Shown here: positions 1 through 6,540 of the stretch, piece after piece
Layout of the letters: the number at the start of each line of letters is the position of its first letter
Numbering within the stretch: position 1 is the first letter of the stretch
Assembly (NCBI GenBank): GCA_948560485.1
Contig: CAOXUF010000119.1
Coordinates: 1 to 6,645, forward strand
Direction of reading: 5' to 3'
Source: an uncultured Eubacterium sp.
GTDB taxonomy: Bacteria; Bacillota_A; Clostridia; Lachnospirales; Lachnospiraceae
Length of the DNA stretch: 6,645 nucleotides
The notes under the pieces: model-generated
Seen by the model: only the letters and a program-made list of their open reading frames with translations
Databases searched by the model: none
What the model was told of the DNA's origin: nothing
Position numbers and translations under genes: made by a program

Positions 1-390
1 CATACAATTGCCGATCCTTACTTCCGCTTCCGGTCCATTCATGACCTTCATGCCGTCTTTCAGGCCTTCTGGTGCGATAATATAGGCTTTCTCTCCATCA
101 GCATAACAGATGAGAGCGATGTTAGCCGATCTGTTCGGATCATATTCAATACCGATTACCGTTGCCGGGATACCGTCTTTATTTCTCTTAAAATCTATAA
201 TTCTATATTTTCTTCTGCTGCCGCCTCCACGATGTCTGACCGTAATCTTACCTTGATTATTACGTCCTGCATTCTTTTTCAGGGAAACAAGAAGACTCTT
301 TTCAGGAGTATTCTTCGTTATTTCCGCGAAATCAGAACCGGTCATATTTCTTCTGGAAGGTGTATATGGGTTATATGTCTTGATTCCCAT
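1..390 (-). CDS. rplB: 50S ribosomal protein L2, N-terminal part (cut by window edge)
   Basis: This is the N-terminal 130 codons of ribosomal protein L2, a primary 23S rRNA-binding protein needed for subunit association and peptidyl-transferase centre assembly. The translation starts [17 protein letters not shown] and continues through the family-typical stretch [20 protein letters not shown] and later [20 protein letters not shown]2 is normally about 275 aa, so roughly half lies beyond the left window edge; the frame is open to base 1. The start is fixed by an AAAGGAG-type ribosome binding site (AGGAG at 399-403, 8 bases before the ATG). It is the fifth gene of the S10 operon here, but an unusual 252-nt spacer separates it from rplW instead of the usual short gap. 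Identity is certain; only the 3' part is missing. Confidence 0.97.
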
Positions 391-463
391 TTTTATTTCT
401 CCTTTCGATTCTCGATTTATTATCGCACTTTTCTGTGCTTAGGTGGTTAAGATCTATTAGGAA

Positions 464-635
464 GTTCTCTTCGCCATGCTCAGAGAACGGCTTTCACACC
501 AGATTCGACAATACCTCATCAGGTGTTCAATACCTCGTTAAGTGTCGGGTATGTTCCGCTCGCTAGGCTCGAAAACACCTCGCCAAGCTCCCGGAACGGC
601 TTTGCACTAAACTCGTGAAATACCTCGTTAAGTGC
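464..635 (-). repeat. Duplicated hairpin element in the rplW-rplB spacer
   Basis: The 252-nt spacer holds no convincing gene but contains an imperfect two-unit repeat. Each unit has one smaller hairpin, then the shared minus-strand string AAAGCCGTTC, then a second hairpin. Unit 1 has stems 604-615/624-635 and 553-571/579-597. Unit 2 has stems 496-507/515-526 and 464-470/482-488. A 16-base string, AATACCTCGTTAAGTG on the plus strand, occurs exactly at 529-544 and 619-634, with diverged copies at 510-525 and 574-589. Three of the four hairpins share the same pattern: paired bases, a conserved A-A mismatch, three pairs, two pyrimidine mismatches, then a G-C pair closing a 7-8 base loop. Several pairs differ between copies but stay complementary. 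Whether it acts as RNA in the transcript or as a mobile DNA palindrome is unknown. Confidence 0.75.
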
Positions 636-642
636 TTCCAGC

Positions 643-942
643 CTATAGCCCCGTAAAGATCTCGATCTCTTTGCTGTCTTCTGTGAGCCAAACGATTGCC
701 TTTTTGGTCTTGGCCGTTCTTCCCACGGTAGTCCCCCGTCTTTTTTTCTTACCGGGCACATTGATCGTATTTACTTTCTTTACTTTTGTTCCTTCGAACA
801 TCTTTTCCACAGCTTCTTTAATCTGTGCTTTGTTTGCCTCTGTATGAACAAAAAATGTATATTTCTTGTCACTCATTCCGGCCATACTTTTCTCTGTAAT
901 AACCGGCTTAAGGATTACGTCATAATACTGTAAAACTGCCAT
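643..942 (-). CDS. rplW: 50S ribosomal protein L23
   Basis: L23 binds domain III of 23S rRNA at the polypeptide exit tunnel and is the docking site for trigger factor and signal recognition particle. The 99-residue product has the usual length. It begins [20 protein letters not shown], where KPVITEKS is the family hallmark, and has the basic loop [20 protein letters not shown] near residues 64-83 followed by a hydrophobic C-terminal strand. Its ATG shares one base with the rplD stop codon (TAATG), and its ribosome binding site AGGAGGT (952-958) lies inside the last codons of rplD, so translation is coupled. The stop codon is followed almost at once by the hairpin repeat element, which puts that element in the transcript between L23 and L2. 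Confidence 0.98.
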
Positions 943-2700: not shown

Positions 2701-2830
2701 GACAAGCGGTGACTGTACACTCTCCCGTGTGTGTCGTGAGAACCTCACACGTTGTTACCCGCCGCAGCTGCCTATCTTCTCCTGAGCCGCATATCCAACG
2801 GGCTGTTGTGATACGTACAGTGACTTGTCG
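2700..2830 (-). promoter_or_regulatory. Structured S10-operon leader domain with long-range closing stem
   Basis: In the untranslated leader of rpsJ, GACAAG at 2701-2706 is complementary to CTTGTC at 2824-2829, with C2700-G2830 extending the pairing. CTGTAC at 2713-2718 is complementary to GTACAG at 2815-2820. The two helices are separated by an internal loop of 6 and 3 bases, and together they close a domain of about 96 nt. Inside are a hairpin at 2726-2751 (CGTGTG/CACACG, or alternatively GTGAG/CTCAC) and one at 2785-2804 (AGCC/GGCT). Such a compact structure upstream of a ribosomal operon suggests autoregulation by an operon product; L4 does this in E. coli. I do not recognise a named RNA family. 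Confidence 0.5.
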
Positions 2831-2861
2831 CCAGTTTCCTAACTTGACATTCGCTCCACGG

Positions 2862-2904
2862 AAAAACCTGCCACATTAAGGCAGCAACCTCTCGCTTCAT
2901 TGCT
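2862..2904 (-). promoter_or_regulatory. Possible attenuator: weak terminator-like hairpin overlapping an alternative hairpin
   Basis: On the transcribed strand CTGCC (2884-2880) pairs with GGCAG (2872-2868) across a 7-base loop. One G and then five T follow (2866-2862), a short intrinsic-terminator shape. An alternative hairpin, AGCAA (2904-2900) with TTGCT (2887-2883), shares two bases with the terminator stem, so the two cannot both form fully. The stem is only 5 bp and the T-run short, so this is tentative. It would lie about 15-55 nt into the leader. Confidence 0.3.
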
Positions 2905-2923
2905 ATCATGTCACAGCTTTTTA

Positions 2924-3015: not shown

Positions 3016-3969
3016 TCATATGGTAGAGAATTTACCTGTTGGTAAGTGTTTTCCTATGTATCCCACAATACCAACTCCATGTTCTGCATCAGGGAGGAAA
3101 TGGATTCTTCCTGGAAAATTACCCGCAAAACTAATATGCCAGCCAAAAAATTCTTCTTTTCCATATGGAGTTTTAAAGACTCTTAATCTTCGCAATTCAT
3201 CATTTGTTTCTACCGTTTCCGATTCACCACGACATCCATATCCCACTTCATTCTTGTTAAATCGACCATCAAATTTCCCAAAGTAGTCTTCCAATACTTG
3301 AAGTCTCTTCATAATCATCTGAATATGCAGTGAAATTCTTGCTTCTTCCAACTGCTTCTGAACAGTATCGCAAAAGCACAAATGTGGGTAAAGCAGCTTT
3401 CTTTTCTCCCATAATTCTTTCCCAGACGATACCATCAACCTGGCTCTATCCTTCTGCTTTTTCTCTAATAAATGCACCTGTTCTTCGAAACAGCAATTTT
3501 CTACAGCTACATACCTGTCATCCTGCTCTAATGTCACATAAGTTCCAACAATTTCCTCTGTCTGCCATATGCTGGAGGTATTCATACTGACAACATAACT
3601 TTCCAACTCGTAGGCGGCCAGACAACCAACAGCACGATTCTTTTCACCATCATCAGATTCAATGATCAGTTCACTCCCCGGAAAGTCTTTCTCTTCGATC
3701 AACTGCTTCCTGTTGATAATAGTCCGAAAAAAAGCTTTCTCTTGTTGCGGAATCCCAGAATCCTGAAGCCAGTCATAAATTTTATAGCCTGATACCAGAT
3801 CCTCTGTCAACAACTCCGTGGTATAATAAAAATCCCGGTCGCCTTTTTCATGAAACAATTTTTGACAGACTTTTAACATCTGACTAATGGCATGATTAAC
3901 ATCTGCATGGTTCATGTCATTTCCACGAATTGATAATTCATTCAATATCATATGTATTATATCTCCCAT
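3016..3969 (-). CDS. Uncharacterised protein, third gene of a DUF262/DUF3696 cassette
   Basis: I do not recognise this 317-aa protein. It has no signal peptide or membrane segment, so it is probably cytosolic. The N-terminal half (about 20-175) is mixed and acidic. A helical stretch (about 160-230) contains LYPHLCFC at 193-200. The C-terminal part is the most motif-like: RGESETVE at 247-254, RVFKTPYG at 263-270, then short probable beta-strands with H278, GRIHF (287-291) and GYIGKHLPT (303-311). This His/Arg/His pattern recalls small nuclease or RelE-like folds only loosely; that is inference. The ATG directly abuts the stop of the ATPase gene. An alternative start at codon 7 (ATG 3949-3951) has GGGAG 11 bases upstream and may be the real one. 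Close linkage suggests it works with the ATPase, perhaps as an effector. A run of three small genes instead of one is excluded by the single long open frame. Confidence 0.85.
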   Translation of the reverse strand: MGDIIHMILNELSIRGNDMNHADVNHAISQMLKVCQKLFHEKGDRDFYYTTELLTEDLVSGYKIYDWLQDSGIPQQEKAFFRTIINRKQLIEEKDFPGSELIIESDDGEKNRAVGCLAAYELESYVVSMNTSSIWQTEEIVGTYVTLEQDDRYVAVENCCFEEQVHLLEKKQKDRARLMVSSGKELWEKRKLLYPHLCFCDTVQKQLEEARISLHIQMIMKRLQVLEDYFGKFDGRFNKNEVGYGCRGESETVETNDELRRLRVFKTPYGKEEFFGWHISFAGNFPGRIHFLPDAEHGVGIVGYIGKHLPTGKFSTI

Positions 3970-5073
3970 TCAAAATAATGAATCTACCGCTTTATCCCAC
4001 TCATCAAAGAAACCCTCCGGCCAATTAGACAGACTTCCGTCCGAAAGTATTTCTGGCGATGTCATATCATGTTTTATCATTCCGCCGTCATCCTCATATA
4101 CATAGAAATAATTCAGTTTTACCTGTTCTTGCCGAATCAGTTTATGCTTAACAGAAATTCTAATTCCATTTAATATATGATCACTATGCGTTTCCATGAT
4201 AATCTGAACACCATTGGCCGCCGCCCGCGCAACTAGTTCCCCTATTTGTCTCTGCCCTTTCGGATGAATATGTGCTTCAGGATTTTCAAGTATTAGCAAA
4301 TCGCCTCTCCTTGCTTTAAGCAAAGCAAGGATAACAGGCAATGCATAAGATACGCCAAATCCCGTATTTATCGCATTTGTTGATTCCTCACCCATAATGC
4401 TCGGCTGGGCATACCGCAGACCCATCACATCAGAATCTAAATTAGGGATTGCTTTTACTCTAATACCTGGGGAAATTTCAGACATCCATGCATTAACTTG
4501 CAGTTCCAGCCTCTCACTGCTCTCACTAAAATTTTTCATATTCCTATATACCTTAAAATCTGAATCACTCCCCAAAGCATAAAGACTTGAAACGGCATAT
4601 TCCCCCTTATTTCCTATCTGTGTAGGGGCAAAACGTTCCTCCCCCAGATCATCATAATATCTTCTAGGGCCAAGCCTTTCTGCCGAAATATACTCAAACC
4701 CATTTCCCGCCAACCCACCTCTGCCAAAACTTAATTCATTATATTTCATTGATAATGCCTGTTCCGTCTCACTATAATGGCATTCCCAGATTCCTTTCCC
4801 CTCTTCTTTTACTGACAACCTGATATCCTCATCCTTTTTATACCAATATGATATATCCTTTATCTTGCCCAAACTTACATAACGTCCATTCAAGACTATA
4901 TGATTATCCAGACCAGACTGGTTCCTCTCATATGTCTGTCGGAACAAGAGTAATACCTGTATCAAAGTAGATTTCCCCATACCGTTAACGCCTGTAAGCA
5001 GATTTAACTCTCTGCACTCTATAGAAATTTCTTCAAAACACTTAAAATTCTTCACCTCAATCTTCTTTATCAT
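3970..5073 (-). CDS. AAA/ABC-type ATPase, DUF3696 family
   Basis: This 367-aa protein is an SMC/ABC-like ATPase. The N-terminal strand MIKKIEVKNFKCFEE leads into the Walker A motif GVNGMGKST (28-36). YISAERLGPRR (128-138) is typical of this family. NTGFGVSYALPVILALL (236-252) occupies the signature-motif region. Walker B is LLILENPEAHIHP (259-271), with E263 or E266 as candidate catalytic acid, and THSDHILNGIR (295-305) supplies the switch histidine. The C-terminal WPEGFFDEWD (351-360) is the mark of the DUF3696 tail. Relatives act as nucleotide-driven sensors or regulators in defence and DNA-repair modules, generally with a partner nuclease; no nuclease domain is visible here. The start is supported by GGAGG (5083-5087), 9 bases upstream and inside the preceding gene, which it overlaps by 17 bases. 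It abuts the next gene with no gap. All ATPase motifs look intact. Confidence 0.93.
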   Translation of the reverse strand: MIKKIEVKNFKCFEEISIECRELNLLTGVNGMGKSTLIQVLLLFRQTYERNQSGLDNHIVLNGRYVSLGKIKDISYWYKKDEDIRLSVKEEGKGIWECHYSETEQALSMKYNELSFGRGGLAGNGFEYISAERLGPRRYYDDLGEERFAPTQIGNKGEYAVSSLYALGSDSDFKVYRNMKNFSESSERLELQVNAWMSEISPGIRVKAIPNLDSDVMGLRYAQPSIMGEESTNAINTGFGVSYALPVILALLKARRGDLLILENPEAHIHPKGQRQIGELVARAAANGVQIIMETHSDHILNGIRISVKHKLIRQEQVKLNYFYVYEDDGGMIKHDMTSPEILSDGSLSNWPEGFFDEWDKAVDSLF

Positions 5074-6343
5074 TCTCCATAACCTCCAACACTTTTTTTA
5101 CAAGAGCCTCTACACAGCCAATCCGCAAATATACTGATTTTTTTTCTGTCGATTTCAGCAAATACAAGTAATCCGTGCTTTCACAGAGTTCCATATATTC
5201 CCTTTGTACCTCATCCTTACAAAGAATCAATCTGTCTACGTCATCCTGCGACAATTTCTTTATTACATAACACCATGACTCAAAAATCACCTTATTGACA
5301 GGGCGTCTCCGTCCATCATAACATATTTTTCTGAAAGCATTTCTTCCCATCAGTTTATACATATTATCCATCACACATCTAAATTCCTGCCTTATATGAT
5401 CTAATTCTGCCTCTGACGCACAGTTCAAATACTTCATTCCTTCATTCAAAAACTCATCAATATTCCCCGAATACTGATTCAAGTCCAGGTAACAAAATGA
5501 AACATACCGAAGTACAAACTCCCGGTCAAGCATTCGTTCGCTCTTCACGCTCCCGCCTGTAGCAGACACAAAACATCTCATTCCGGCACAATTTTTCAAA
5601 AATTGAGTGGACTTTCCTTGAAACAATGCATTTCTGATTTCCTGGGCCTCCAATGCGAGTCCCCCTGTATTAATCCGCTTAAAAATATTGTATTTTACAT
5701 TATCCGGAGTGGACGGATTCACCAGGTAAACATTAATTACTGTCTCATCAATTCTCCTTTGAAATGCTCTGGGAAGCTGATCGTAAGCACATCTATTCAA
5801 TTCAGGAAAAAATTCCATTTCCTGTAATCTTAAAGTTTTATCTACTACAAACTGTTTCAAGGCTGTCACCCGCTGTAATCCGTCTATAACAAGCCATTTG
5901 TCTTCATCCGAGGCATCAAAATAAAACGCCGGCAATGGAATCCGCAGGAAAATAGACTCAATTAACTGGCTTTTTTGTTTTCTATCCCACAAGCCGGCCT
6001 TCCTCTGGAAAGATGAATCAAATTCAATTTCTCCTTTTTGTATACGCTTCAGCAAAGAATCTAACGTCAGTGGCTTCATAGTAATATCAATCTTGGAAGG
6101 ATCAAAGGGCCTGACCTTCTCCCCTTCACAGGAATATGCAGTTACATCTGGTTCAACATCATCTTGAATCATTGAGATCCCACGCTCCATGAAATAATTT
6201 ATAATCTCATCATAATTTTCGTCTGTCAATTTCATAGTCATATAGACCAGATTGAAATTGATGGAATTATTTTGCTCTTTTGCAATATTATATAACTTCT
6301 CTAAATCTTCCTGTTCGCTTACTTTCAATGTATATTCACCCAT
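5057..6343 (-). CDS. DUF262-family protein (ParB/GmrS-like N-terminal module, no HNH domain)
   Basis: The 428-aa product carries a DUF262 domain from about residue 90 to 240. Signs are FQRKAGLWD (112-120), QSQLIESIF-like helix KSQLIESIF (124-132), LRIPLP (133-138), the hallmark DGLQRVTAL (154-162), FKRINTGG (222-229 region) and LEAQEIRNAL (231-240). This ParB/sulfiredoxin-like fold binds or hydrolyses nucleotides in GmrSD type IV restriction enzymes and SspE. Those proteins usually carry a C-terminal DUF1524 HNH nuclease; I see no HNH-type histidine motif in residues 250-428, so nuclease activity, if any, must come from elsewhere. Residues 36-62 (MTMKLTDENYDEIINYFMER and following) recall the sigma-70 region 1.1 pattern, a weak resemblance. 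AGGAG (6353-6357) lies 9 bases before the ATG. It is the first gene of the cassette and overlaps the ATPase gene by 17 bases. Confidence 0.92.
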   Translation of the reverse strand: MGEYTLKVSEQEDLEKLYNIAKEQNNSINFNLVYMTMKLTDENYDEIINYFMERGISMIQDDVEPDVTAYSCEGEKVRPFDPSKIDITMKPLTLDSLLKRIQKGEIEFDSSFQRKAGLWDRKQKSQLIESIFLRIPLPAFYFDASDEDKWLVIDGLQRVTALKQFVVDKTLRLQEMEFFPELNRCAYDQLPRAFQRRIDETVINVYLVNPSTPDNVKYNIFKRINTGGLALEAQEIRNALFQGKSTQFLKNCAGMRCFVSATGGSVKSERMLDREFVLRYVSFCYLDLNQYSGNIDEFLNEGMKYLNCASEAELDHIRQEFRCVMDNMYKLMGRNAFRKICYDGRRRPVNKVIFESWCYVIKKLSQDDVDRLILCKDEVQREYMELCESTDYLYLLKSTEKKSVYLRIGCVEALVKKVLEVMENDKED

Positions 6344-6464: not shown

Positions 6465-6495
6465 GTTACAGTTCAGCCTTCGGCAGAACTGTAAC
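6465..6495. repeat. Inverted repeat 1 of a three-hairpin cluster
   Basis: GTTACAGTTC (6465-6474) and GAACTGTAAC (6486-6495) form a perfect 10-bp stem. Inside, after an A-A mismatch, GCC and GGC pair around a TTC triloop. No T-run follows on either strand, so it is not a standard intrinsic terminator. Confidence 0.7.
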
Positions 6496-6540
6496 TGAAT
6501 CCGGCTCATTTAAAGTTCGCTTCGCGAAGAGCCGGATTCA
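6496..6540. repeat. Inverted repeat 2 of a three-hairpin cluster
   Basis: TGAATCCGGCTC (6496-6507) and GAGCCGGATTCA (6529-6540) form a perfect 12-bp stem. Between them is an 8-base bulge and an inner 5-bp stem TTCGC/GCGAA (6516-6520, 6524-6528) with a TTC triloop, as in repeat 1. It begins at the base after repeat 1 ends, so the two form one composite element. Confidence 0.7.

Follow-up and report, generated by a model that had tools for sequence, protein, structure and literature searches.

The window, a stretch of 6,645 nucleotides, holds a Lachnospiraceae S10 operon on its minus strand, in the order rpsJ, rplC, rplD, rplW, spacer and rplB (Table 1; genes were named from their ORF sequences, gene order and relatives). 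A sequence-only reading of the window had singled out the spacer between rplW and rplB for its length, 252 nt, which the ORF limits confirm, and for two related units of two hairpins each. Is this spacer usually short, as that reading assumed? Only in part. Among the spacers of 79 relatives (80 loci, L001-L080, one of them without rplB) the length ranges from 13 to 344 nt, and several of the long ones carry other palindromes; the median, recounted on 76 spacers, is 78 nt.

Table 1. Features of the window and the basis on which each was placed
Feature	Position	Strand	Basis
rplW (L23), gene upstream of the spacer	643..942	-	ORF; served as query for relatives
rplW-rplB intercistronic spacer, 252 nt	391..642	-	ORF limits; compared with 79 relatives' spacers
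Hairpin H1, unit 1	604..635	-	Model R1, 46.4 bits (sequence in R1 training set); pairs checked
Hairpin H2, unit 1	553..597 (model match 560-590)	-	Model R1, 45.3 bits (in training set); pairs checked
Half-hairpin remnant between the two units, consisting of a 5' arm and a loop	about 527-546	-	Read from sequence
Hairpin H3, equivalent to H1, unit 2	496..526	-	Model R1, 44.4 bits (in training set); pairs checked
Hairpin H4, equivalent to H2, unit 2	464..488	-	Pairs checked; read from sequence
rplB-proximal hairpin, slightly changed (TAA for TAT)	420-441	-	
rplB (L2), gene downstream of the spacer, truncated by the window edge	1..390	-	ORF; tblastn partner
S10-Clostridia leader (RF03136)	2825-2908	-	Rfam match

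In the mRNA sense the spacer runs through H1, H2, the remnant, H3 and H4, and ends in a tail toward the rplB ribosome-binding site. H1 starts 7 nt past the rplW stop codon and consists of five base pairs, a U·U mismatch, three pairs, a tandem G·A mismatch, a G-C pair and an 8-nt loop. H2, which lies about 45 nt away in the same orientation, has a 6-bp outer stem and a 3x3 internal loop with a second tandem G·A, followed by a core of the H1 type. H1-H2 and H3-H4 repeat one two-hairpin unit in a tandem duplication that has partly decayed: H4 is reduced to the outer stem, one tandem G·A and two pairs, having lost its inner core, and in the half-hairpin remnant positions 529-544 are a direct repeat of 619-634. 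Base by base, the pairs quoted earlier for 604-635, 496-526 and 562-588 are all present, together with the A-A mismatch, the T-C/C-T double mismatch and the closing G-C pair, and the outer stems (553-558 with 592-597, 464-470 with 482-488) are fully paired. The mismatches had been quoted from the plus strand, however; with the operon on the minus strand, they become U·U and tandem G·A in the transcript.

Is any of this a known RNA? The S10-Clostridia leader in the window is also a structured RNA of the S10 operon, but it differs from the spacer element in place and in structure. For the element itself, no Rfam family was found at gathering score in the window and eight loci, nor in permissive searches of the spacer and eight element-bearing loci. 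GA-cis was dropped as an identity, as it matched L034 but, in the permissive search, gave no match in the eight loci that bear the element. The GA-cis RNA of L034 (RF02987, 54.4 bits, positions 6988-7116) lies downstream in the ribosomal locus of another Lachnospiraceae genome.

Conservation of the hairpin fold

The spacer folds well on the transcribed strand. Its sense strand has a minimum free energy of -73.2 kcal/mol (z = -2.86), equalled by 1 of 200 shuffles, against z = -1.46 and 15 of 200 shuffles for the antisense strand. Orthologous copies allow a closer look at the stems. The closely related genome G001, whose RplW is 91% identical, carries H1 and H2 at the same spacer position (L002), and in its H2 three pairs have changed on both sides relative to the window with pairing kept; in G019 the same holds for one pair of H1.

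How far does this extend to copies elsewhere? A set of 29 sequences (A1) also speaks against chance pairing, but it is biased, since the scanner that collected its sequences required three inner pairs and thereby preselected them for pairing. Free of this bias is a stem-blind search of 200 family genomes, in which the letters of the tip were fixed and every stem position was N. It returned 256 matches in total, and among the matches listed all three inner pairs are formed, G-U allowed, in 123 of 150. Fully Watson-Crick inner triplets come in ten types among these listed matches, seven of them found at least three times, and distinct genome-triplet combinations are fully paired in 50 of 77 cases (again among matches listed), compared with a shuffled mean of 22.3 and a shuffled maximum of 33. 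A control with the reversed pattern gave 135 matches, in 98 of the 200 genomes as opposed to 74 with the true pattern. With a background this large, many isolated unpaired matches of the pattern are due to chance; this background does not account for those that are paired and recur, and only these count as evidence. Chance complementarity without selection, the least probable of all readings by a long way and close to nil in our estimate, is thus refuted by the stem-blind search, and rejected by the shuffle z-score and the orthologous compensatory changes as well. The earlier claim that folding has been selected therefore stands: where stem-breaking substitutions in relatives and a lack of covariation in wider copies were looked for, pairing was found to be kept in the former and covariation present in the latter.

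What is conserved is the hairpin tip, made of the U·U mismatch, three pairs, the tandem G·A, a G-C pair and a loop of 7-8 nt that starts with GU, on stems that covary. The two strands are not equivalent. Of 98 distinct copies, 94 fold more stably on the strand that carries G·A when RNA energies are used, and 91 when DNA energies are.

Dispersal in Lachnospiraceae and placement in ribosomal operons

There is good support for a family of dispersed hairpins in Lachnospiraceae to which the unit belongs, and the suspicion of a dispersed palindromic repeat was borne out by many copies across genomes. R1, a covariance model of the hairpin tip trained partly on ribosomal copies, matches in 93 of 299 family genomes (E 0.01 or better) and in 6 of 10 genus genomes (E 1 or better), the other four having no match at that cut-off. 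At class level, with a different cut-off from the family tally (E 1e-4 or better), it matches in 11 of 391 genomes, six of which are also in the family sample. The family search scored 24 candidates per genome and lists the best-scoring matches only; at least 24 matches were obtained in nine of the 299 genomes, and G002 has 22, of which 21 are strong. Among open-licence PMC papers we found no earlier description of such a repeat in Lachnospiraceae.

The hairpin occurs in three settings, and tandem expansions are seen in the family. In the R form two hairpins of the same orientation lie close behind a stop codon. In the P form the hairpin comes directly after TGRTATAATATGA, often in tandem (G002, G278 and one site in G019), and a foot of this type is present in 19 of 194 contexts. 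We take TGRTATAATATGA to resemble an extended -10 promoter; as the hairpin follows such a sequence and in several cases precedes a gene, a promoter-plus-5'-hairpin cassette is possible. The P-form tandem arrays of G278 (L238-L248) have a period of about 91 nt, and further hairpins behind such a sequence were observed in G002 (L280-L286) and at position 5543 of L150. In the M form the hairpin is part of long palindromes. In G207 it sits in the middle of a MITE-like palindrome of about 135 bp, whose terminal repeat has 106 matches and none in a reversed-pattern control. The palindromes of G287 (L233-L236; also L160 and L168) are long and near-perfect with outer arms that vary by site, as if the element entered existing palindromes or made them.

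Which genes host the copies? Outside ribosomal operons they lie between pgk and tpi (L182, and weakly L151 at 25.5 bits), between V-type ATPase subunits F and A (L159) and in a uronate-degradation pair, 5-dehydro-4-deoxyglucuronate isomerase and gluconate 5-dehydrogenase (L187), while the tip is also found in many unrelated intergenic regions. Core operons recur as hosts, and R-type copies are not confined to them. The gene before the L183 copy, read by eye as GAPDH, matches no NCBIfam family and was dropped. A simple ORF caller gave 109 contexts, or 92 after removal of 17 duplicates (overlapping loci or identical copies). Over all forms, copies with codirectional neighbours are 33 sense and 26 antisense, without a clear strand bias. 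Within 45 nt of the gene end on the 5' side (17 of the 92 distinct contexts) the count is 14 sense against 3 antisense, and 10 against 1 when ORFs of at least 100 codons are required, both with this crude ORF caller.

Candidate carriers of the repeat were also considered. A phage or plasmid origin was rejected, with no blastn match in phage and plasmid collections at E 1 and no viral contig containing the 25-letter core; a 16-nt piece of the element was found in four viral contigs. An autonomous transposon bracketed by two copies was rejected too. The members of the best such pair (G182, inverted, 2.4 kb apart) turned out to belong to two different ribosomal spacers as separate copies; the genes enclosed by two further pairs did not, by eye, resemble transposases.

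The sequence-only reading had called the location in an essential transcript odd, and this proved to be the main surprise, as the family is enriched in ribosomal operons. In the genus and its neighbours, copies lie between rplW and rplB (window, G001, G019), rpsN and rpsH (G018, G019, G004), rpsH and rplF (G001, G004, G005), infA and rpmJ (G018, G019, and in G001 behind infA at a contig end) and rpsM and rpsK (G019). The same spacers are shorter and free of the hairpin in relatives, so that filled and empty orthologous spacers can be set side by side. The scan of filled and empty spacers covered the sense strand; separate two-strand searches place these ribosomal copies on the operon's own strand, and an inverted copy between rplW and rplB of L023 is the sole exception among the 80 loci (E 0.01 or better). 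In 9 of 11 filled ribosomal spacers the first canonical hairpin starts 0-8 nt past the stop codon; in the remaining two, a variant with a further hairpin as its loop begins at the stop. Tandem copies inside one spacer of G019 are nearly identical, and therefore point to local expansion.

The hairpin is dispensable, given the four genus genomes without a match and the fetched ribosomal stretches, some of them partial, of five of the eight genus genomes with a located rplW (G002, G013, G014, G015 and G017), which lack it. At E 0.01 or better it is found around rplW in 6 of 81 sources, the window among them; at the same threshold the rplW-rplB spacer itself is filled in three of the 81 (window, L002, L023), to which G019 is added.

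Enrichment was assessed for the S10-spc-alpha cluster, taken as 19 kb from -8 to +11 kb of rpsH, with sites within 300 nt merged. The sample comprised 49 family genomes less four without rpsH (G189, G151, G084, G296), hence 45. With kinship left in, 17 of 170 listed sites fall in the cluster, where 1.04 would be expected from genome size, and they come from 12 of the 45 genomes. Among the sites listed, 15 of the 17 are sense and two antisense (two-sided binomial 0.0023). Because R1 was trained partly on ribosomal copies, the count was repeated with pattern matches alone: 13 of 93 listed sites lie in the cluster versus 0.51 expected, in 9 of 21 genomes, all 13 being sense. Both counts exclude stem-blind pattern rows with an unpaired inner stem. 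By offset, seven of the 17 sites belong to the rpsH-rplF spacer, the assignment of most of the 17 to a spacer being read from their distance to rpsH. G226 has a further copy 168 nt upstream of rpsH that is outside the lists counted, which makes the cluster count a lower bound.

Likeness to REPs and possible roles of the hairpins

What kind of repeat is this? REPs are short imperfect palindromes, dispersed through genomes, paired and in tandem, that lie next to the 3' end of the ORF before them and in some cases provide its stop codon; tagged REPs are reported mainly from Proteobacteria, and the text that describes them names no Firmicutes, Clostridia or Lachnospiraceae (PMC3733652). The Lachnospiraceae repeat, a short imperfect palindrome with many intergenic copies, paired and in tandem, resembles REPs and BIMEs in these respects, and it too lies close behind the 3' ends of ORFs. 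It differs in its foot. A GTAG or CGTC tag defines the two REP superfamilies, and tagged REPs are tied to RAYT transposases; here, of 194 distinct contexts, no more than 7 have GT[AG]G and 3 have CGTC at most 2 nt from the 5' foot, while the foot ends in GA in 86. In many REP families neighbouring units are in opposite orientation, which is typical though not strictly defining, whereas the two hairpins of the Lachnospiraceae unit point the same way. One tip is common to many species, and the hosts are Lachnospiraceae. With no tag, units of one orientation and no RAYT link found, the repeat is a REP-like variant and not a member of the GTAG or CGTC superfamily. Terminal inverted repeats, a trait of MITEs, are seen in the G207 form; the ribosomal form is without such a terminal repeat, and no autonomous partner has come to notice.

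Folded single-strand hairpins have been considered as possible substrates of RAYT/TnpA-REP and IS200/IS605 systems (PMC6006769, PMC2817692), and the Lachnospiraceae hairpin could serve as one. The sequence-only reading had suggested a search for a REP-associated Y1 transposase in the host. The search gave no link: PF01797 has no match in G001 or in G002 with its many strong copies, it is present in 12 of 18 copy-rich genomes and gives no match in the other 6 (draft assemblies, in which a gene may be missed), and R1 finds no copy within 2.3-2.4 kb around five long Y1 genes. IS200 end hairpins were rejected as a source, the IS200-like element of L108 having, by eye, other hairpins. Of the original proposal, a folded element that is either selected for its fold or a mobile palindrome, the selected fold and the dispersed palindrome have held up and the tie to a REP-type Y1 transposase was not recovered. 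A gut-Clostridia family with neither tag nor a found transposase link thus raises the question of what moves the repeat.

The account that we favour, and consider somewhat probable, is a REP-like repeat whose spacer copies are transcribed and act as intercistronic RNA hairpins. Its two halves deserve different trust: we are fairly sure of the REP-like dispersed repeat, and about evenly divided over an RNA role between cistrons. Copies would spread as folded single-stranded DNA with the help of some enzyme, and those surviving in ribosomal operons would be the ones that leave transcription and translation intact. Once transcribed, the hairpins downstream of the stop codon could do what has been suggested for REPs: they could block 3'-5' exonucleases or mark segment boundaries, so that the mRNA of the upstream cistron would persist apart from its neighbour's. 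As the tip stays constant while its surroundings change, something probably recognises it: an enzyme that moves it as single-stranded DNA, a nuclease or RNA-binding protein, or the two kinds together. The copies in ribosomal spacers probably fold in mRNA.

Could the hairpin be nothing but a selfish mobile palindrome, its fold kept solely as the DNA substrate of a mobilising enzyme, with no part to play as RNA, and its ribosomal enrichment a consequence of heavily transcribed DNA being accessible or single-stranded? We regard this as possible though rather unlikely. The absence of a clear strand bias over all forms, which means that the family as a whole does not look RNA-only, speaks for spread at the DNA level, and the MITE-like palindromes of G207 and the tandem expansions fit the same picture. 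The orientation of the copies argues against it, both in the ribosomal cluster and, as far as the crude ORF caller can tell, close behind gene ends, and the tandem G·A makes the mRNA-sense strand of the ribosomal copies the better folder. The sense bias and stop-codon position of the R form speak for tolerance or use as RNA.

Does the hairpin instead bind a ribosomal protein that regulates the operon from within? Recurrence in ribosomal operons and a conserved tip would suit such internal autoregulation, but the tip also turns up in operons for pgk-tpi, uronate degradation and V-type ATPase, as well as in numerous unrelated intergenic regions, and is absent from the rplW surroundings of most relatives, which makes such a role improbable; a further difference from ribosomal-protein leaders is that the hairpin is not conserved across relatives at the same operon position. 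An intrinsic terminator or attenuator inside the operon is less probable again, very much so in our view. Strong hairpins just past a stop codon might suggest one, yet no U-run follows any of the four window hairpins, as read from their sequence, and the essential rplB downstream depends on readthrough.

Returning to the REP-like repeat with transcribed spacer copies, a bolder version can be put forward tentatively, although as a whole it is doubtful. In it, a folded repeat found across the family, with a tip (U·U plus tandem G·A) that serves for recognition, would be gained and kept preferentially in ribosomal-protein and other operons of Lachnospiraceae, would be handled by some protein or nuclease, and would now be an intercistronic regulator of ribosomal-protein stoichiometry, that is, a mobile RNA/DNA hairpin domesticated repeatedly at the same spacers. 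Do such repeats serve their host? That copies are enriched in so conserved an operon cluster, for the most part in sense orientation and directly after stop codons, makes the question testable on natural pairs of filled and empty spacers. The copies are also a warning that ribosomal spacers in Lachnospiraceae genomes are not inert.

Other elements around rplW, rplB and the operon

An unrelated conserved hairpin lies toward the rplB end of the rplW-rplB spacers of relatives, with the plan TAT-stem-loop-stem-G[AC]NA. Defined as a stem of 4 bp or more followed by GATAA or GCAAA, it is present in 44 of the 71 spacers of at least 30 nt in L001-L080, with 16 stem types; shuffled spacers give a mean of 0.6 (maximum 4) and reversed sequences give 0. 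When TAT and GATAA are required and pairing is left free, 18 of 26 places are paired. No Rfam match to this hairpin was obtained in the loci searched, and it may be a candidate uncharacterised cis-regulatory RNA of rplB.

Other palindromes were observed nearby. The rplW-rplB spacers of L025, L052, L055, L066 and L072 contain, by eye, a palindrome that has CTTAG...CTTAG arms as seen on one strand and another loop, and that a GAATCG...CGATTC hairpin follows in several cases; these are possibly a sister family. At the end of the window (6465-6540) two adjacent inverted repeats of another palindrome type have arms of 14 nt (93% complementary) and 12 nt (100%). In G001 (L155) the spacer between a KOW-domain gene and infA is 296 nt of tandem repeats of about 100 nt, compared with about 10 nt in relatives. 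Adjoining the S10 operon, three minus-strand genes at 3016-6343 match NsnA, NsnB and NsnC of PADLOC-DB (E 1e-122, 8e-109 and 2e-58), presumably the Menshen anti-phage system.
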